Part shown: positions 30,084-41,846 of the stretch, piece by piece
How positions within the stretch are numbered: position 1 is the first letter of the stretch
Layout of the letters: each line of letters opens with the position of its first letter
DNA from: a bacterium BMS3Abin02
GTDB lineage: Bacteria; Actinomycetota; Acidimicrobiia; Spongiisociales; UBA4744
Length of the DNA: 51,235 bases
Assembly: GCA_002897675.1 (NCBI GenBank)
Contig: BDSU01000014.1
Location: forward strand, 1 to 51,235
Reading direction: 5' to 3'
Translations under genes and position numbers: made by a program
The notes under the pieces: generated by a model
The model's database searches: none
Told to the model about the DNA's origin: nothing
The model's input: only the letters and a program-made list of their open reading frames with translations

Positions 30084-32240
30084 ATGACCCGATTGAGATA
30101 CGTCGTGGTCGGCGTTCTCGGATTGTTCCTCGTTCTGTTGGCCGCAGGGTGCGACAACAAGGGCGCCGAGCCGACTACGACAACGAGTCCACCACAGACG
30201 ACGACCACTACCACCACCACTACCGCACCACCGGCCGTCGAGCCGGTCGTGGAAATCCCATTCCTTGCCGATTGGCAGGGATCCGGCCACGCCGATGCGA
30301 GTGCCCAGGCTTTCAATCACTGGAACGATGACGACCCTGCGGTCATCCCCACGAGCTGCGCGAAGTGTCACAGCACACCGGGCTTCCAGGACTACGTTGG
30401 CGCGGACGGCACCGCATTCGGAACCGTCGATGCAGACGCTGCGATCGGAACGACGGTGGAGTGCGTCGCCTGCCACAACGACGCGACCCTGAAACTCGAC
30501 CATGTGACGATGCCTTCCGGTGTCGAGATCACCGGCCTCGGCGCCGAGGCGCGATGCATGACCTGTCATCAGGGCCGGGCATGGAAGGGCACGGTCGACG
30601 AAGCCGTTCAGGGAATCGATGAGGACACGGTCTCCGAAGACCTCGGCTTCATCAACATTCACTACTTCGCGGCGGCAGCGACCAAGTACGGGACGGTGAC
30701 GAAGGGCGGCTATGAATACGACGGCAAGTCGTACGATGCGGTCTTCACACATGTCGAGGGGTATGCGACGTGTATCCAGTGCCACGATCAGCACACGCTC
30801 GAACTCAAGGTCGACGAGTGCTCGACGTGCCACGCGGGAGTGTCGTCGGTCGAAGACCTCGAGAACGTCCGGATGGCCGGCTCGGAGGTCGACTACGACG
30901 GCGATGGCGACATCACCGAAGGCATCGCCTTCGAGATCCAGGGGTTGCAGGAGAAGCTGTACGCGGCAATCCAGGCATACGCTTCGTCCAAAGCCGGCAC
31001 ACCGATCGTCTACGCCGCAGAGTCGTACCCGTACTTCTTCGTCGACACGAACGCGAACGGTGACGCCGACGGAGAGGAAGCCTCCTACGGCAACAAGTAT
31101 GCGAGCTGGACCCCGCGGCTCCTGAAGGCGGCTTACAACTATCAGGTCTCCATCAAGGATCCCGGCGCGTACGCCCACGGCGGCAAGTACATCATCGAGC
31201 TGCTCATCGACTCGACGGACGACCTGAACTCGGTGTTGTCATCGCCGATCGCCATGACCGACGTGCATCGCATCGACGCCGGCCACTTCGCAGGATCCGA
31301 AGCTGCGTTCCGCCACTGGGACAAAGACGGTGAGGTCGCGGCGTCGTGCAGCAAGTGCCACTCGGCGACCGGCCTGCCGCTCTTCTTCAAAGAAGGCGTC
31401 ACGATCGCGCAGCCGCTTTCCAACGGCCTCCTGTGCTCGACCTGCCACAGCGATCTGTCGACGTTCGATCGATACGAGGTTGCTTCGGTGACCTTCCCGA
31501 GTGGAGCGAAGATCGACAGCGGCAGCAACAACATGAATCTGTGCATGACCTGTCACCAAGGCAGGGAGTCGACCGTGTCGGTCGACAAGCTGATCGGCGA
31601 CACGAAGGCCGATGTGGTGAGCGACTCGCTCCGGTTCCTGAACGTGCACTACTTCGCGGCCGGAGCGACGATCTTCGGAGACCAGGCAAAGGGCGCCTAC
31701 GAGTACACGGGCAAGACCTACGTCGGCTACAACGAGGATCACCCGCTGAACCAGTGCACCCAATGCCACGATCAGCACGCCCTGGAAGTCCAGGTCGACA
31801 AATGCTCGGCGTGTCACGGTACGGTCGCCAACGAGGACGACCTGCACGCCATCCGCATGTCCAGCGTCGACTACGACGGTGACGGCGACACGACCGAAGG
31901 CATGTGGGACGAGATCCAAACCATGCGGGACGATCTGCTGGCCGCCATCCAGGCCTACGCGGCCAAGACGGCGGGGGCCGAAGCGATCGTCTACGACCCG
32001 GGCTCGTACCCGTACTACTTCGTCGACACCAACGGCGATGGAGTGGCCGGTGCCGACGAGGCGAACTACGGGAACCGCTACGGCACATGGACACCCCGCC
32101 TGTTGCGGGCCGCGTACAACTATCAGTACGCGACCAAGGATCCGGGCGGGTTCGCCCACAACGGCGAATACATCGTCCAGACCCTGTACGACAGCATCAA
32201 GGATGTCGGCGGCGATGTCTCGGGAATGACCCGACCGTAG
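30084..32240 (+). CDS. Decaheme c-type cytochrome lipoprotein (two pentaheme modules)
   Basis: A 718-residue surface electron-transfer protein. A signal peptide ends in the lipobox LAAGC, then a Thr-rich linker. Ten CXXCH heme sites start near residues 92, 127, 158, 230, 246 and 422, 451, 487, 558, 574. The second five repeat the first at a constant offset of 324-330 residues, so the gene arose by internal duplication. Each module also has two Ca-binding-like Asp loops (DYDGDGD and DTNANGD or DTNGDG). The ATG follows GGAGG by 7 nt. I know no named family with this exact layout. It should sit outside the membrane and pass electrons to or from a partner such as the octaheme protein encoded next. 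Confidence 0.88.
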   Translation: MTRLRYVVVGVLGLFLVLLAAGCDNKGAEPTTTTSPPQTTTTTTTTTAPPAVEPVVEIPFLADWQGSGHADASAQAFNHWNDDDPAVIPTSCAKCHSTPGFQDYVGADGTAFGTVDADAAIGTTVECVACHNDATLKLDHVTMPSGVEITGLGAEARCMTCHQGRAWKGTVDEAVQGIDEDTVSEDLGFINIHYFAAAATKYGTVTKGGYEYDGKSYDAVFTHVEGYATCIQCHDQHTLELKVDECSTCHAGVSSVEDLENVRMAGSEVDYDGDGDITEGIAFEIQGLQEKLYAAIQAYASSKAGTPIVYAAESYPYFFVDTNANGDADGEEASYGNKYASWTPRLLKAAYNYQVSIKDPGAYAHGGKYIIELLIDSTDDLNSVLSSPIAMTDVHRIDAGHFAGSEAAFRHWDKDGEVAASCSKCHSATGLPLFFKEGVTIAQPLSNGLLCSTCHSDLSTFDRYEVASVTFPSGAKIDSGSNNMNLCMTCHQGRESTVSVDKLIGDTKADVVSDSLRFLNVHYFAAGATIFGDQAKGAYEYTGKTYVGYNEDHPLNQCTQCHDQHALEVQVDKCSACHGTVANEDDLHAIRMSSVDYDGDGDTTEGMWDEIQTMRDDLLAAIQAYAAKTAGAEAIVYDPGSYPYYFVDTNGDGVAGADEANYGNRYGTWTPRLLRAAYNYQYATKDPGGFAHNGEYIVQTLYDSIKDVGGDVSGMTRP

Positions 32241-32478: not shown

Positions 32479-33672
32479 ATGAGACGATCTCTACTGCTGC
32501 TGGTAGTCGTTTTTGCAATGATTCTCGCCGCGTGTGTTGGACCGGCCGGACCCGTAGGTCCAGCCGGACCAGAGGGTCCCCAAGGACCTGCCGGCCCGGC
32601 CGGACCCGCCGGACCCGCGGCCGCCACCGTGGCCATCGGCGCCGAGTACGTGGGAACTCAGACGTGTGCCGGGTGCCACCCGGACACCGCCGAGAAGTTC
32701 CTCAAGTCGGGACACCCGTACAAGCTGAACAAGGTGGTCGACGGACAACCGCCGACGTACCCGTTCACAGAGATCACCGAGGTCCCTGATGGATACACGT
32801 GGAACGACATCACGTACGTGATCGGTGGGTACAACTGGAAGGCCCGTTTCATCGGGCTCGATGGTTTCATCATCACCGGCGACGAGAACGCCAAAACGCA
32901 GTACAACTTGCCGAACCCGACCATCGGGCTCGGAGGCGACTGGGTGGCATACCACGCCGGTCAGCAGAAGGCCTACGACTGCGGTCCTTGTCACACGACG
33001 GGATACAAGCCGGAAGGCCATCAGGACGGACTCGACGGAATCATCGGAACCTGGGCGGAGCCCGGGATCCAGTGTGAAGAGTGCCACGGCCCTGGAAGCA
33101 ACCATGTGGCGGATCCGTATGGAGTCGCGATGAAGGTCGATGTGTCATCCCAGGCGTGCACTTCGTGTCACCGCCGCGGGTCGACCCTGACGATCGACGC
33201 CAAAGGAGGATTCATCAAGCACCACGAGCAGGGCGAGGAGCTGTTGCAGACAAAGCATGAGTCCCTCAGCTGTGTCACGTGCCATGATCCGCACACAGGC
33301 GTCATCGCTCTGCGCAAGGCCGGAGAGGATTTCGCAGCGAACTTCCCCTGCCAAACCTGTCATGAGGAACAGGCCGACTATCAGAAGTCGACGGTCATGT
33401 CGGGCTTCGTCGCCTGCATCGACTGCCACATGCCACGGATCGTCAAGTCCGCGGTTGGTGATCCCGCTGCATGGACCGGCGATATCCGAACGCACTTGTT
33501 CGCCATCGACCCGAACCTGGCCAACCAGTTCTCCGAGGATGGCTCGGTGGCCAATTCGGCGATCACGCTGGATTGGGCCTGTAAGTCGTGTCACCGTGAC
33601 GGCGGCACGGCAACCGTCAAGACGGACGAGGAACTCAAGGCAACGGCCGAGGGATATCACTCCAAACCGTAG
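32479..33672 (+). CDS. Octaheme c-type cytochrome lipoprotein with collagen-like tether
   Basis: A 397-residue exported cytochrome. The signal peptide ends in the lipobox LAAC and is followed at once by nine Gly-Pro-X triplets, a short collagen-like rod, before the heme domain. Eight CXXCH sites begin near residues 63, 168, 199, 227, 265, 291, 313 and 368. Their arrangement recalls cytochrome c554/NrfA-like multiheme folds, but I see no established catalytic motif, so an electron carrier is the safer reading. AAAGGAGG lies 8 nt before the ATG. It has its own regulatory box and is separated from the decaheme gene by a terminator. Confidence 0.87.
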   Translation: MRRSLLLLVVVFAMILAACVGPAGPVGPAGPEGPQGPAGPAGPAGPAAATVAIGAEYVGTQTCAGCHPDTAEKFLKSGHPYKLNKVVDGQPPTYPFTEITEVPDGYTWNDITYVIGGYNWKARFIGLDGFIITGDENAKTQYNLPNPTIGLGGDWVAYHAGQQKAYDCGPCHTTGYKPEGHQDGLDGIIGTWAEPGIQCEECHGPGSNHVADPYGVAMKVDVSSQACTSCHRRGSTLTIDAKGGFIKHHEQGEELLQTKHESLSCVTCHDPHTGVIALRKAGEDFAANFPCQTCHEEQADYQKSTVMSGFVACIDCHMPRIVKSAVGDPAAWTGDIRTHLFAIDPNLANQFSEDGSVANSAITLDWACKSCHRDGGTATVKTDEELKATAEGYHSKP

Positions 33673-34191: not shown

Positions 34192-34366
34192 CGGCTCACC
34201 GGGCTCGCTTCGGCCACCGTTCCTCGTACCTCGTAGCGCGGTCCCGTGTCGGAACGGCGTCGCGAGGCCGGGGTCGCCGAAGTGCCCGCCGCAACGACCT
34301 CCTCCGTCCATGGCGGAACACCTTCGGCACCTTCTCCGCCGCTGTCGCGGTCCCTCCCAAGAACCC

Positions 34367-34452
34367 CTCCGCCCTCGGCCGAAACCCCGAGGCCACCTCC
34401 CAAGACCCCCTCCGCCCTCGGCCAAAACCCCGAGGCCACCTCCCCCAACGCT
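34367..34452. repeat. Two 43-bp direct repeats with internal hairpin
   Basis: CTCCGCCCTCGGCC begins copies at 34367 and 34410. Each holds CCTCGG/CCGAGG arms around an A-rich loop. A related block occurs at 151-175 inside family A. Confidence 0.75.
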
Positions 34453-34460
34453 CGCCAAAG

Positions 34461-34604
34461 CCCTCGCTGGGGGAGGGAATGTTTGCCGGCCCTCGCCGGG
34501 GGAGGGAATGTTTGCCGGCCCTCGCTGGGGGAGGGAATGTTTGCCGGCCCTCGCCGGGGGAGGGAATGTTTGCCGGCCCTCGCCGGGGGAGGGAATGCTG
34601 ACTG
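34461..34604. repeat. 29-bp tandem repeat, about five copies
   Basis: Units begin at 34461, 34490, 34519, 34548 and 34577. They alternate CGCTGGGGGAGGG and CGCCGGGGGAGGG and share AATGTTTGCCGGC. The period is not a multiple of three, so it is non-coding. The 34192-34651 gap holds this array and the 43-bp repeats but no gene. Confidence 0.92.
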
Positions 34605-34651
34605 GGCCTGCCGGGGGAGGAGACGGGCCCGCCAGAGCTCATCACTCTTGG

Positions 34652-35791
34652 TCAGACGGCCGGTAGCGGCACGGCCCGCCCTTCGGCGGCGCTCGTGAGG
34701 GCAGCGGCGAAGATCCGGTGGCCGGTCAACGCCTCTTCGGGGGTGGCACAACCGAATCGGTCGCCCAGCCGGCCTGCCCTCTCGGTGAAGAATGCCGCCC
34801 ACATCTGTAGCAGGGCGTCAGGAAACCCGAACTCGAAGATGGATCCCGTGATGGTGGCGAAGACGGAAACGTGTCCGGGCTGGACCTCTTCCCATACCTG
34901 CCGGCCCGCCGGGTCGATGCGGAAGCGGCGCAAGATCTGGGGTGATCGAGTCGAGAAGGACACCCCGCCCTCCATACCCAGCACTTCGAACGCCCAGGTG
35001 TTGGAGTGGCCGGGAGCGATTCGCTTGGTCTCGAGATGAAGTGGGAACGAGCCGTCGGCGGAATCGATGGTGCAGACGAGGGAGGCGTTGTCGATGGTGT
35101 CACAGAGGACCGGCTCGCCGTCCGGTCCAGGCCGGTGAGTGACGATGTCCTGAAGGGTTGCGTACACCGAGGAGGGAACCCACCCGAGCCGGAGGGGAAC
35201 ATGGGCGACGTGCATGCCGAGGTCTCCCATGACTCCGATCTCGCCACACGTGGCGACCTTGCGCTTCCAATTGATCGGCTTGTCCCGGTTCATGTCGGAT
35301 GAGTGAAGCAGCGCTGCGCGCGCCTCGATGATCTGGCCGAGACGACCCGAGGCGACCTCGGCCATCGCCATCTGCGCGCCAGGGAAGAACGGCAACTCCG
35401 ACGAGCACCGCGAGAAGGCGTGCGCGTCTTCTACGGCAGCAACGATGGACTGCGCCGCCGGGAGATCGATGCCGAACGGCTTCTCCCCGAAGAGGTCGAT
35501 GCCCGCCTCGAGGACGTCCCGGTAGATGGCGCCGTGAAGGACGTGTGGGACCGCGACATACACGACGTCCACGCCGGCCTCGAGAAGCCGTCTGTGGTCA
35601 TCGGTGGTCATCTCCACCGTGTCGATCCGGTCGAACCAGGCTCTCCGCTCGGTGTCGATGTCGCAGACGGCGACGAGGCGGGGAACCACGGGAACGTCGA
35701 GGAGCGCCATCCAGCGCCCGAAGGCCGCTGCGGCCTCGCGGCCCATCAATCCGCCACCGATGATCCCGACGCGTACTTGTTGCGCCATCAT
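34652..35791 (-). CDS. Gfo/Idh/MocA-family oxidoreductase
   Basis: A 379-residue NAD(P)-dependent sugar or polyol dehydrogenase. The Rossmann loop is VGIIGGGLMGREAA, and the family's EKPFG motif carries the catalytic-site Lys at about residue 104. GDLGMHVAHVPL is the helix with the substrate-binding His. It is the last gene of an operon with a class I aldolase and a PfkB kinase; the 4-bp overlap with the aldolase gene implies coupled translation. The substrate is unknown; inositol- or sulfosugar-like pathways use the same trio of enzymes. Confidence 0.85.
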   Translation of the reverse strand: MMAQQVRVGIIGGGLMGREAAAAFGRWMALLDVPVVPRLVAVCDIDTERRAWFDRIDTVEMTTDDHRRLLEAGVDVVYVAVPHVLHGAIYRDVLEAGIDLFGEKPFGIDLPAAQSIVAAVEDAHAFSRCSSELPFFPGAQMAMAEVASGRLGQIIEARAALLHSSDMNRDKPINWKRKVATCGEIGVMGDLGMHVAHVPLRLGWVPSSVYATLQDIVTHRPGPDGEPVLCDTIDNASLVCTIDSADGSFPLHLETKRIAPGHSNTWAFEVLGMEGGVSFSTRSPQILRRFRIDPAGRQVWEEVQPGHVSVFATITGSIFEFGFPDALLQMWAAFFTERAGRLGDRFGCATPEEALTGHRIFAAALTSAAEGRAVPLPAV

Positions 35792-37707: not shown

Positions 37708-37795
37708 CGACGACTCTCACCACCCCTGGGCCGGGGAGAAGGCGGTCACCGACGAGAGCGGCATCCCCGACGACTCTCAATACCCCTGGGCCGGA
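37708..37795. repeat. 28-bp direct repeat at the 3' end of the heptaheme gene
   Basis: Copies at 37708-37735 and 37768-37795 match at 26 of 28 positions. The second spans the last codons and stop of the cytochrome gene. Confidence 0.7.
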
Positions 37796-39309
37796 GTGTG
37801 GCACTGCGTGCACTTGATGTTCTGCCACACCTTTCCGATGTCGACAGGATGCTTGAAGTCGAGACCGGCCACACTGCTCTCGAGGTCGGCGATGTCGTCC
37901 GAAGGACCCTGGGCGGCGATCGTATGGCACGAGTCGCACGTGGACGAGATCTGTGCCCCCTCGCTGCTCTTGAGATCCGAGAAGTGACACCGGAAACAGC
38001 CGTCGTTGACGAAGTGGCTGAGGTTGTCCTCACGGGCCCGGTAATCGGTCTTCATCTCCGGGAAGAAGTTGGTGTCGTAGATGCGCACCAGCGCGTCGGC
38101 GGCGTCGTCGACCTCGCGCTGATTCACGTCGTCCGCGAACTGGCTCGCATAGTAGGCCAGGAGTCCGGACCGAATCGCCTCGTCTGCCTCTGTCTTGGTG
38201 TCGTACGGTGCGTTGAGCAGGTTCAGGCCTTGCCAACGGATGAACGGGAGGTCCTTGGAGATCGTGCCCTTGGTCATCTCGAGGTTGATCGCCGTCGCCG
38301 GAGGGAGGAAGTCGTGACTGGGCCGGTTGTGGCAGTCCATGCAGTCCAAGATACGAACCTCGACATCGGGCGAATCCGGATCGACCGCCACATCGGGGCG
38401 CTCGAAGACGGTGACTTCTCCCGTCTCACCGTCCGTGAAACGCACCCAGGCCATCTGCTGGCGCTTCTCGTCGGTTGCCACGTATTCGATCTTGTTCTCG
38501 CCGAGCATGTGCCAGTGGATGCCTTCCAGTTTGCCGGTCCGGGGGTTCCCTCCACCCACCTTCATGAGCAGACTGATCGTCCACGGCGAGTTCGCCTCGT
38601 CGGTGCGGTAGTAGGTCTTCGTGATGAGTTTCTCGCCATAGAACTGATCGGGCCAGTGACACCCTTCACAGGTCTGCTGAGCAGGTCGCAGACTCCTCAC
38701 CGGTGTCGGTATGGGACGGTCGTACGAGTTGGTCATCACCGCCACCACCTGACGGATGCCGTCGATCTTGGAGCGGACGAAGAACGATGCGCCGGGGCCG
38801 ATGTGACACTCTGCGCAGGCGACGCGAGCGTGGGGGGACTCCTGATAGGTGACCCACTGCGGGTTCATCACCGTGTGGCACGCCTCACCGCAGAACGATG
38901 CGGAGTCGGTGACTTCGTACCCTTTGAAGCCACCCCAGGCGACCGTGCCGAGCAGCATCGCGGTGAGGATGCCGAACAGCGCGAGGGAGCGCATGTACCG
39001 GGGGTTCGATGGCTCGAACCGGAGATTGAACCGGACGTGTTCTCCTCGCCGACGAGCCCGGACGACCTGGATGCGAAAGGCAAGCAAGAAAAGGATCGCT
39101 CCGAGCAGGACCACCACGGGCAGACCGATGAACGTGACGAGTCCTCGATACGGGTTGCTGACAGGTGAGCTCAGGTCGACGAATGCCAGGATGGCGAACC
39201 CGAGCATTCCGGCGACGACGAGCGCGCCGCCGACCGCGGCCAGGGGATGGCGGTAGAGGCTCCTGCGCTCGCGCGACTCGGCGCTCGTTTCGCTCTCCTT
39301 GTCACTCAC
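37777..39309 (-). CDS. NapC/NirT-family heptaheme cytochrome c (menaquinol dehydrogenase type)
   Basis: A 510-residue membrane protein expected to oxidise menaquinol and pass electrons to other cytochromes. Three hydrophobic segments lie in the first 135 residues. The first heme site is CGEACHTVM (CX3CH with a nearby Met), followed by CAECHIGPGASF, CEGCH, CMDCH, CFRCH, CDSCH and CTQCH. NapC/NirT proteins with this CX3CH first site occur in other phyla. I start at GTG 39309 because GGAGGGA lies 6 nt upstream. A DosR-like box stands 61 nt before it. Confidence 0.88.
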   Translation of the reverse strand: MSDKESETSAESRERRSLYRHPLAAVGGALVVAGMLGFAILAFVDLSSPVSNPYRGLVTFIGLPVVVLLGAILFLLAFRIQVVRARRRGEHVRFNLRFEPSNPRYMRSLALFGILTAMLLGTVAWGGFKGYEVTDSASFCGEACHTVMNPQWVTYQESPHARVACAECHIGPGASFFVRSKIDGIRQVVAVMTNSYDRPIPTPVRSLRPAQQTCEGCHWPDQFYGEKLITKTYYRTDEANSPWTISLLMKVGGGNPRTGKLEGIHWHMLGENKIEYVATDEKRQQMAWVRFTDGETGEVTVFERPDVAVDPDSPDVEVRILDCMDCHNRPSHDFLPPATAINLEMTKGTISKDLPFIRWQGLNLLNAPYDTKTEADEAIRSGLLAYYASQFADDVNQREVDDAADALVRIYDTNFFPEMKTDYRAREDNLSHFVNDGCFRCHFSDLKSSEGAQISSTCDSCHTIAAQGPSDDIADLESSVAGLDFKHPVDIGKVWQNIKCTQCHTPAQGY

Positions 39310-39370
39310 GCTCGATCCCTCCTCAACCGCTCTCACCTCAACGCTAGCCGATCCGCCCTCACCGCCTTCA

Positions 39371-39409: not shown

Positions 39410-40690
39410 TCAACCTTCCGGTGCTCCGGCCGCGATCCATGCCTTCACCAACGCCAGATCCTCGTCCGTGAACTTGGCGAAATGCGACCCGCCCCCCACC
39501 TTGACGATCACATGACTCGCATCCGCATCACCGGCCACAAACCCGGGCTCACCACTATCACCCCCGGCCAACAACCCCGCATACGACGTAACGTCCAAAC
39601 CAGACGCCGGCGCATCCCCACCGTGACACGACCCGCACGTCGCCTTGAACACCGCCGCCACCCCCGAATTCCATGTCACGCCGGCAGAAACCGCCGTGGT
39701 CGAGGTTGCCGGAGCCGCCGTGGTCGAGGTTGCCGGAGCGGTCGTGGTCGCCGATGCGGCCGTCGTCGTCGGAGCCGCCGTGGTCGAGGTTGCCGGAGCC
39801 GTCGTGGTCGCCGGCGCGGTCGAAGTCGTCGTCGGGAGCGGTGTATAGATGGGGCCGACGAGCGGCGGAGGCACAATGGTCGTGATCGCCGTCTGCTCGA
39901 ATGTCACGAACTCATAGATGCCCATCAACATCACGGCTGCCAGGACGGCGAAGACGGGCCAATACCTGAGCGCTCGATTACGGCGTAACTCGGGATCGAT
40001 CTCGACCTCGTCCCTTCCCGCGTCGATCGCGGCCAGTTCGAGCGGATGGAGCTCTTCCATCTGGGCACGCGGCAGATACCCGGTGAAGATCGAAGGGTTG
40101 AAGTGCCGCCAGTGCACGTCGTAGGAGTGCCAGACGATGATGGCGAGCACGGCGAGGACGGCCTCCCAACCATGGGCCGCCTTGGCCGCCGGCACGAAGA
40201 TCCCCGGGAGTGACCGGGTGGTGGCGATCGGATTCCAAAGCATGAAGCCGGTCACTGCCATCAGGAGGGTGCCCCACACGAGCGACCAGTACTCCATCTT
40301 CTCGCCGACCGTATAGCGGCCCTCAGGAGGCGGGCTGGAGGTCACACCGAGGTTGAACCTGATCCAGCCCCACGCGGCCAGAAGGTCCGCCTTCCCCGGA
40401 ATCAACGCATGAGGTCTGCGAAGCACGAACCGCTTGTAGCCCAGCACACCGAGGTGGTACACGAGAGAGAGCAGCAGAATGGTTGCGAGAATGTGGTGGA
40501 TTCTGCGCGTGTAGTCGATGCCGCCGAAGAGCCCGATGATCCAGTCCGAGAACCAACGGTCGGCGTATTTCTGCACGAGCCCGCTTATCGCGAGGCCGGT
40601 GAACGTGATGATCTGGACGGCGTGCTCGAGCCGGTCCGACACCGTGAACCTCAAGACTCTTTCGTCGGGATGCGTCATCGTCTCAGCCAC
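39410..40690 (-). CDS. Diheme cytochrome b fused to a monoheme cytochrome c domain
   Basis: A 426-residue membrane protein. The first 290 residues hold about five membrane segments with the His ligands of a formate-dehydrogenase-gamma/CbcL-like cytochrome b (RLEHAVQ, RIHHILA, VYHLGV, VWHSYDVHWRH). A long Ala/Thr/Pro linker (about 285-340) leads to a C-terminal domain with one CGSCHGG heme site and the late residues typical of small class I cytochromes. This would carry electrons from menaquinol across the membrane to the outside. The GTG start has GAGAGGG upstream and overlaps the nonaheme gene by 8 bp. Confidence 0.85.
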   Translation of the reverse strand: MAETMTHPDERVLRFTVSDRLEHAVQIITFTGLAISGLVQKYADRWFSDWIIGLFGGIDYTRRIHHILATILLLSLVYHLGVLGYKRFVLRRPHALIPGKADLLAAWGWIRFNLGVTSSPPPEGRYTVGEKMEYWSLVWGTLLMAVTGFMLWNPIATTRSLPGIFVPAAKAAHGWEAVLAVLAIIVWHSYDVHWRHFNPSIFTGYLPRAQMEELHPLELAAIDAGRDEVEIDPELRRNRALRYWPVFAVLAAVMLMGIYEFVTFEQTAITTIVPPPLVGPIYTPLPTTTSTAPATTTAPATSTTAAPTTTAASATTTAPATSTTAAPATSTTAVSAGVTWNSGVAAVFKATCGSCHGGDAPASGLDVTSYAGLLAGGDSGEPGFVAGDADASHVIVKVGGGSHFAKFTDEDLALVKAWIAAGAPEG

Positions 40691-41783
40691 GCCGGCGCCC
40701 TCTCAGGCGGGCGGCAAGCCTTCTCCGCACGTCGAGTAGCACGGCAAGCAGCATCGCGCCGATCACGGTCGGTATGAGAATCTTGTAGAAGGTGTTCACC
40801 CAGTACACGAGCGGCGCCTCGGTGGGGCTCGGCGCATAGTGACTCAGCCACGCGTCGGGGAAGTTCGTGGTGGCATCCGGATGACACCGCCGGCACGTGG
40901 CGAGCAGGTTCTTCTTGTACACGGAGCTGTCCACATCGGCGGGCGCCTTGATGTCATGAACGCCATGACAATCGACACACACCGGCTTGTTCGTCTGCTG
41001 GCCGGGAGCGAGCTTCTCGAAGAGGACGACCGTTGTGCCGTGAAAGTCCGACAGGTACGAGCTGAACACGTTCGTGGAGATGTCGTACTTGTCCATCAGG
41101 GCCTTGTCGGCATGACAGGCCGCACAGATCTGCGGCGAGAAGAGTCGAAACGGCGAGTTGACATGAGGGCCCTTCACGTCATGAACGCCGTGGCAGTCCG
41201 TGCAGGTCGGGACATCGGGGTTGCCGGTCGTGAGCGCCTCCCCGTGCACACTTTCCTCGTAGGCGTCGTAGATCTCCGAATGGCACTTCCTGCACATCAG
41301 CGGAATGCTGGTTCGAGGCTTCCCGGGCGGTTGGACGTCGTGGGAGCCGTGGCAGTCGGTACACACGGCTGCCTCCATGACGCCGTCTGCGCGTGCGCGC
41401 TCGTGATCACTGTCACGAGTCTGCGTGTACTCGGGGTAGTGGCACGTCAAACATGCCGTGTACATCTGCACCGTGAAGTCCCGGCGGCTCTTGGCGGTGA
41501 TCGGATCGTGCGGATACGTGGTGATGGCCGTGTGACAGAGAACACACGCCACATCCAGTTTTCCATGAACCGAATCGGCGTATGCGTCGCCGTCGACGGC
41601 AACGCCGAGCGTCTCGCCCGAGGGCAACGATATCTCCGCCGTGCTTCCCTCGTGACAGGAGAGACAGTAGGAGTTGTCCCACCGCGGGTCGGTCTGTGCA
41701 GACGCCCGAGACTGGCCGGCGATCAGAATCGTCGCGCCGATGATCAGCGCACCGAGTACGGCGATCCTTCCAAATCTATGCAT
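40683..41783 (-). CDS. Nonaheme c-type cytochrome with C-terminal membrane anchor
   Basis: A 366-residue exported cytochrome. A signal peptide (about 1-30) precedes nine CXXCH sites: CLSCH, CVLCH, CLTCH, CTDCH, CRKCH, CTDCH, CAACH, CVDCH and CRRCH. The repeated CTDCHGSHDV/CTDCHGVHDV units suggest growth by small duplications. A hydrophobic anchor and a basic tail end the protein. It shares an operon with the cytochrome b-c fusion, so the pair probably forms a membrane complex in which this subunit accepts electrons outside. The ATG at 41783 is 12 nt after GGAGGGGA; upstream in-frame starts exist. Confidence 0.87.
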   Translation of the reverse strand: MHRFGRIAVLGALIIGATILIAGQSRASAQTDPRWDNSYCLSCHEGSTAEISLPSGETLGVAVDGDAYADSVHGKLDVACVLCHTAITTYPHDPITAKSRRDFTVQMYTACLTCHYPEYTQTRDSDHERARADGVMEAAVCTDCHGSHDVQPPGKPRTSIPLMCRKCHSEIYDAYEESVHGEALTTGNPDVPTCTDCHGVHDVKGPHVNSPFRLFSPQICAACHADKALMDKYDISTNVFSSYLSDFHGTTVVLFEKLAPGQQTNKPVCVDCHGVHDIKAPADVDSSVYKKNLLATCRRCHPDATTNFPDAWLSHYAPSPTEAPLVYWVNTFYKILIPTVIGAMLLAVLLDVRRRLAARLRGRRRG

Positions 41784-41846
41784 GCGTGTGCCGTCTCCCC
41801 TCCGCATCACGACACACACTCTAGATCTGGGACCCTCCGTTTCCTC

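Follow-up and report, generated by a model that had tools for sequence, protein, structure and literature searches.

Analysis of a 51,235-nucleotide stretch of the genome of the bacterium BMS3Abin02, hereafter referred to as the window, revealed a gene that probably encodes a lipid-anchored octaheme electron-transfer cytochrome, supplied with electrons from quinol through neighbouring gene products and carried on a collagen-like stalk that has been under selection. The lipobox, the tether with its unbroken Gly phase, the hemes, the fold group and the gene neighbourhood were all established from the sequence.

The coding sequence starts at an ATG at 32479, with an AGGAGG-like ribosome-binding site upstream, and its product opens with the signal peptide, lipobox and cysteine typical of bacterial lipoproteins (MRRSLLLLVVVFAMILAAC). 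One residue separates the LAAC lipobox from the repeat GPAGPVGPAGPEGPQGPAGPAGPAGPA, which a short Ala/Val-rich joint connects to a domain carrying eight CxxCH motifs. The preliminary description had reported an octaheme cytochrome with nine uninterrupted Gly-Pro-X triplets between lipobox and heme domain, and this was exact. The gene contains the following features:

32479–33672, + strand: coding sequence of the lipid-anchored octaheme c-type cytochrome, 397 aa (reading of the open reading frame; orthologues)
32479–32532, + strand: signal peptide, residues 1–18 (direct reading; kept in orthologues)
32533–32535, + strand: lipobox cysteine C19 (LAAC), predicted lipidation site (direct reading)
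32539–32619, + strand: nine Gly-Pro-X triplets, collagen-like tether, residues 21–47
32665–32679, + strand: heme motif 1, CAGCH, residue 63
32980–32994, + strand: heme motif 2, CGPCH, residue 168, at the position of the active-site heme in OcwA and MccA
33073–33087, + strand: heme motif 3, CEECH, residue 199
33157–33171, + strand: heme motif 4, CTSCH, residue 227
33271–33285, + strand: heme motif 5, CVTCH, residue 265
33349–33363, + strand: heme motif 6, CQTCH, residue 291
33415–33429, + strand: heme motif 7, CIDCH, residue 313
33580–33594, + strand: heme motif 8, CKSCH, residue 368

The tether is an uninterrupted Gly-X-Y repeat of nine triplets and is thus collagen-like; it reads GPA, GPV, GPA, GPE and GPQ followed by four further GPA triplets. 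With the same 27 residues in random order, the probability of all nine Gly falling in a given phase was P = 2e-7. Across the nine 9-base units, positions 1 and 2 of every Gly and Pro codon were invariant while third bases and X/Y residues varied, which shows that the tether is not a young DNA repeat. The Pfam Collagen model (PF01391) scored 18.9 bits against the protein, under its gathering cut-off of 27.2, because nine triplets make a short run; the tethers of seven orthologues passed this cut-off. Besides this tether, the BMS3Abin02 genome contained no other sense-strand collagen-like stretch of note.

Structure prediction for the mature protein as a monomer (AlphaFold) gave a mean pLDDT of 80.8, with the tether below 50 and thus no confident structure there. 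The closest structural matches of the model were OcwA (PDB 6i5b; Z 17.8 over 281 residues), MccA (Z 16.5) and OmhA (Z 15.2), followed by NrfA, HAO and the octaheme nitrite reductases at Z of about 5–7, to which a real but distant kinship may exist. Sequence matches to OcwA and OmhA had E values of 1e-10 to 1e-11. Motif-by-motif alignment with OcwA placed the eight hemes at OcwA positions 1–4 and 6–9, and among the eight CxxCH motifs there was no counterpart of OcwA heme 5. Moreover, the model showed no C-terminal three-helix bundle, having no helix longer than 10 residues and approximately 25 residues after heme 8. The CX15CH motif of MccA heme 2 was absent as well, all eight motifs being CxxCH and the sole cysteine outside them being C19. 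The NCBIfam model for the OmcA/MtrC family (TIGR03507) scored 21.1 bits of the 209.3 required, and the protein has eight hemes rather than ten. As judged from the predicted structure and the alignments, the heme domain is a member of the OcwA/OmhA/MccA fold group, with OcwA as its best match. Since it lacks heme 5 and the C-terminal bundle and has CxxCH at heme 2, it represents an uncharacterised branch of this group and is an orthologue of neither OcwA nor MccA.

Within this fold group, OcwA of Thermincola potens, which has been characterised as a terminal reductase at the cell surface of this Gram-positive bacterium (PMC6703420), resembles the octaheme protein in fold, sequence, hemes 1–4 and 6–9, extracytoplasmic location and Gram-positive host, but differs in its nine hemes, its C-terminal three-helix bundle and its occurrence as monomer and dimer. 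The recombinant mature OcwA begins with EKPAD, and a collagen-like tether is not mentioned for it. The octaheme sulfite reductase MccA/SirA (PDB 4rkm, 4rkn) shares the fold group, the eight hemes and the absence of OcwA heme 5, the heme set at OcwA positions 1–4 and 6–9 having also been found in MccA (PMC6703420); MccA has CX15CH at heme 2 and copper in its active site, whereas the octaheme protein has eight CxxCH motifs and no spare cysteine. The undecaheme cytochrome OmhA of Carboxydothermus ferrireducens (PDB 6qvm) is similar in heme-domain fold and sequence (Z 15.2), but it has eleven hemes and is secreted and associated with the S-layer. To our knowledge, OmhA carries no Gly-X-Y tether.

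Homologues of the octaheme protein were found in Chloroflexota, Actinomycetota, Bacteroidota, Pseudomonadota and one contig labelled Bathyarchaeota, and the nearest named actinomycetotal relative was labelled Acidimicrobiaceae. They were rare, occurring in 5/149 close relatives, 2/396 genomes of the phylum and 8/400 sampled Chloroflexota genomes, counts that include the own or query genome. An unbroken Gly-X-Y run of 5–16 triplets was present in 16 of the 25 homologues on the tree, with hosts in Chloroflexota, Actinomycetota and the one contig labelled archaeal. These runs begin within a few residues of the membrane anchor, which was present in all 15 of the Gly-X-Y homologues whose available sequence includes the N-terminus, as a lipobox or, in L005, apparently as an uncleaved hydrophobic segment. 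The 16 tethers together contain 178 triplets, with Pro at X in 121 and at Y in 27, and with Y mostly Ala, Gln or Pro. While X, Y and run length drift among them, length changes come in whole triplets, and no homologue linker had an internally interrupted run.

Phylogenetic analysis based on the heme domain only showed that the Gly-X-Y label requires two changes on the tree, a number reached in 0 of 500 shuffles. Two changes fit one gain of the tether and one loss, in the in-clade homologue L010, which combines an A/P/Q-rich linker lacking periodicity with the absence of the lipobox cysteine. Homologues outside the clade had short acidic linkers, another domain or almost no linker; the linkers are ordinary in every homologue at greater distance (Bacteroidota, Pseudomonadota, other Actinomycetota and Chloroflexota). 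Replacement of the triplets by ordinary linker, which the preliminary description had set against its own proposal, was therefore found at the edge of the family only, in L010 and the distant homologues, and 16 homologues keep Gly-X-Y. Its idea of a rod holding the hemes at a fixed distance from the membrane received no support from the tether lengths: orthologue tethers range from 5 to 16 triplets, and thus no single distance is conserved.

Codon comparison revealed how the repeat has been kept. The orthologue of the congener G001 is 93% identical, and 5 of its 9 tether Gly codons have changed, all synonymously, together with three X/Y residues. All four Gly codons are used in homologue tethers, and pairwise comparison of 70 aligned codons gave 41 synonymous and 0 nonsynonymous Gly changes, the zero being partly built in by the definition of tethers as Gly-X-Y runs and by their in-phase alignment. 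The argument for Gly conservation is based, rather, on the finding that no run is broken internally. The Gly-X-Y clade retains its run across phyla at about 45–65% protein identity. On these sequence patterns, namely a strict Gly at every third residue, Pro favoured at X and persistence through deep divergence, we regard the tether as a selected collagen-like stalk between anchor and hemes; the preliminary interpretation is thus partly supported.

Individual loci showed peculiarities. L005 (1541–2767, on a 3.2 kb contig labelled Candidatus Bathyarchaeota) has no lipobox cysteine and starts with an apparently uncleaved hydrophobic segment followed by eleven Gly-X-Y triplets. L046, from the same genome, combines a similar hydrophobic segment with Gly-X-Y and two CxxCH motifs. 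One orthologue (L026 and L027; genome G003, contig C26, 72558–73747) is split into two frames at residue 117, and an ambiguous base at the join indicates either an assembly fault or a broken gene.

The preliminary description had proposed a search for other cytochromes with Gly-X-Y tethers, and such tethers were found on lipoproteins with an MtrC/MtrF domain and on six-heme lipoproteins. A DNA pattern (lipobox, Cys, x, (GPx)2, G) run over 365 Chloroflexota genomes gave 79 matches, most of them due to chance, since a reversed control pattern also matched often. Four of the 79, all of which were read, were lipoproteins, and three of these four were multiheme cytochromes (two six-heme proteins and one octaheme orthologue). 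A search with the MtrC/MtrF domain PF22113 gave 19 cytochrome lipoproteins, of which two belong to Chloroflexota and the remainder to the order of a Vibrio genome; behind the cysteine, 17/19 had at least 3 Gly-X-Y triplets and 10/19 at least 5. Both lipoprotein counts (4 and 19) are small, the 19 comprise cytochromes only, and the heme-free lipoproteins at the loci examined were too few for a control. MtrC-like lipoprotein cytochromes with 12–14 triplets were present in the genomes of relatives (L034, L042, L043, L048), and MtrC/OmcA-type lipoproteins carry similar tethers of 3–7 triplets. Gly-X-Y tethers are thus a recurrent feature of surface multiheme cytochromes, spanning at least two heme architectures and several phyla. 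The strongest collagen matches, at about 60 loci in the two sampled groups, were long, heme-free collagen-like proteins or other repeats; as no cytochromes were among them, the short tethers form a class separate from long collagen-like proteins.

A second cytochrome family with the tether is formed by L159 and L161, Chloroflexota six-heme lipoproteins with eight Gly-X-Y triplets, and L127 and L128 are similar six-heme proteins. L153, an 837-residue MtrC-type decaheme lipoprotein from the order of a Vibrio genome, has twelve Gly-X-Y triplets (GAQGPQGEQGPQGEQGEQGEPGEPG), a tether as long as those of Chloroflexota.

Similar arrangements in known proteins differ in several respects. The decaheme lipoproteins OmcA and MtrC share surface location, lipidation and a Gly-X-Y run directly behind the lipobox cysteine, but they have another heme-domain architecture, fewer triplets and often Pro at Y, and MtrC, unlike the octaheme protein, sits on an outer-membrane porin. 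Proteins of the Scl1 type, a prokaryotic collagen-like protein with 50 triplets in its M1 form (PMC8968730), have uninterrupted Gly-X-Y like the octaheme tether, although they are far longer, have trimerisation domains and adhesin-type roles and lack hemes. Geobacter PgcA is likewise a lipoprotein multiheme cytochrome with tripeptide repeats, but its PTX or PAX repeats lack Gly, lie between hemes and have been proposed to bind minerals (PMC5732950).

How the stalk works can be read in three ways. The first, to which we give about an even chance, is that it acts as an extended spacer made of a single chain, mostly uncharged and resistant to proteases, with Gly-X-Y serving for composition only and no oligomer being formed. 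This agrees with the 3–7 triplets on MtrC/OmcA-type lipoproteins and with MtrC being reported as a monomer in soluble form and as one subunit of the MtrCAB complex (PMC7198977), as well as with the unconserved tether length (5–16 triplets), the other linker types in relatives and the comparable Thr/Pro linker of the neighbouring cytochrome. However, composition explains neither why Gly is invariant in 16 linkers while X and Y change freely nor why length changes by whole triplets.

The second reading, whose chance we put slightly below even, is that the tether forms a true collagen triple helix, which would trimerise the cytochrome at the membrane, bring together 24 hemes and replace the missing C-terminal bundle. 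In its favour, HAO is a 24-heme trimer. The strict Gly phase without internal break in 16 homologues, in which X and Y vary, points in this direction, as do the preference for Pro right after Gly (X 121/178 versus Y 27/178), which is characteristic of triple helices and unlike generic linkers, the length of up to 16 triplets and the seven orthologue tethers above the Pfam Collagen cut-off. Also in favour, the octaheme model is without the long C-terminal helices that usually provide the main oligomer contacts in the superfamily (PMC6703420). Against this reading, a run of nine triplets composed largely of GPA, with neither hydroxyproline nor a known domain for trimerisation, would have only marginal stability, and the tether length is variable, the L025 orthologue having only 5 triplets. 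In addition, OcwA is a mixture of monomer and dimer (PMC6703420), and MtrC is a monomer (PMC7198977) in a family whose members have comparable short tethers.

The third, a neutral and functionless product of DNA slippage in GC-rich sequence, is very improbable and was rejected on the codon evidence: GPA-rich repeats do arise readily at high GC and run length does vary, but third codon positions have diversified around fixed first and second Gly/Pro positions, four Gly codons are used, and one clade has kept the run across phyla at about 45–65% protein identity. Frame-shifted or decayed tether repeats were absent among the orthologues, apart from the different linker of L010. Returning to the selected stalk, it is possible, if on balance doubtful, that surface multiheme cytochrome lipoproteins of several unrelated heme families and phyla have come to share Gly-X-Y stalks as a convergent module, the longer ones forming triple helices that cluster the cytochromes as trimers (24 hemes in the present case).

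The genes surrounding the octaheme gene encode further candidate electron carriers:

30084–32240, + strand: decaheme lipoprotein whose lipobox is followed by an ordinary Thr/Pro-rich linker, a contrast at the same locus to the collagen-like tether
37777–39336, − strand: NapC/NrfH-like membrane multiheme cytochrome with 6 CxxCH, candidate quinol-side partner
39410–40690, − strand: cytochrome b561/formate-dehydrogenase-gamma-like membrane protein with a PSCyt1 domain
40683–41819, − strand: nonaheme cytochrome, with a homologue directly behind the octaheme gene in L008

The octaheme gene follows the decaheme lipoprotein gene in both BMS3Abin02 and G001, where a 95% identical copy of the decaheme adjoins the octaheme orthologue. 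As this decaheme has a Thr/Pro linker and the decaheme neighbour of the L012 orthologue a Pro/Thr linker, both linker kinds are used by these cells. The NapC/NrfH-like, b561-type and nonaheme genes lie approximately 4 kb downstream on the opposite strand, whereas in the Chloroflexota locus L008 their homologues follow directly after the octaheme gene. Variants of this set adjoin the octaheme orthologue in L007, L009, L010 and L011, with a 14-heme homologue of the nonaheme cytochrome behind the octaheme gene in L007. This recurring gene set suggests a quinol-linked electron path with the octaheme lipoprotein as its outermost known member.

From these data we infer the direction of electron flow, the substrate side and the function of the stalk. 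The protein would be a c-type cytochrome anchored as a lipoprotein to the outer face of the cytoplasmic membrane in a Gram-positive-type host. Electrons would most likely leave the quinol pool by way of the NapC/NrfH-like, b561-type and nonaheme cytochromes, reach the octaheme domain and continue to an acceptor in or beyond the cell wall; alternatively, they would enter from a donor and run in the reverse direction. The Gly-X-Y stalk would space the heme domain several nm off the membrane, within reach of neighbouring cytochromes; nine triplets would measure about 7.7 nm as a triple helix, by arithmetic from the standard rise. The homologues beside the Chloroflexota orthologues favour such a path, although in the window the genes of the set lie on two strands and are separated by about 4 kb. 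Such a job can be done without a collagen-like tether, because the decaheme neighbour uses a Thr/Pro-rich linker and distant homologues short acidic ones.

The individual parts of this protein are known. Their combination, and in particular the way it recurs on surface multiheme cytochromes, appears to be undescribed in the open-access literature, where we found no published description of collagen-like multiheme cytochromes in a search that covered few subscription papers. The finding bears on how surface cytochromes of single-membrane bacteria keep a working distance from membrane and wall, and the recurrent stalks offer a testable case of collagen-like sequence spacing, and possibly trimerising, surface multiheme cytochromes. 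If trimers form, collagen-like sequence would gain a new role in electron transfer, and clustered trimers would allow electrons to be exchanged laterally at the membrane or within the wall. If they do not, selection would have favoured collagen-like sequence as a spacer of one chain, and this in turn would alter the reading of such repeats.

Two further observations were made in the window. The decaheme lipoprotein (30084–32240) consists of two similar halves (GHADASAQAFNHW... and GHFAGSEAAFRHW...), an apparent internal duplication. Between a DksA-like gene and position 34652, a short direct-repeat array (34200–34650), apparently non-coding, translates in several frames of both strands into a repeated motif (AGKHSLPRRGPANIPSP...).
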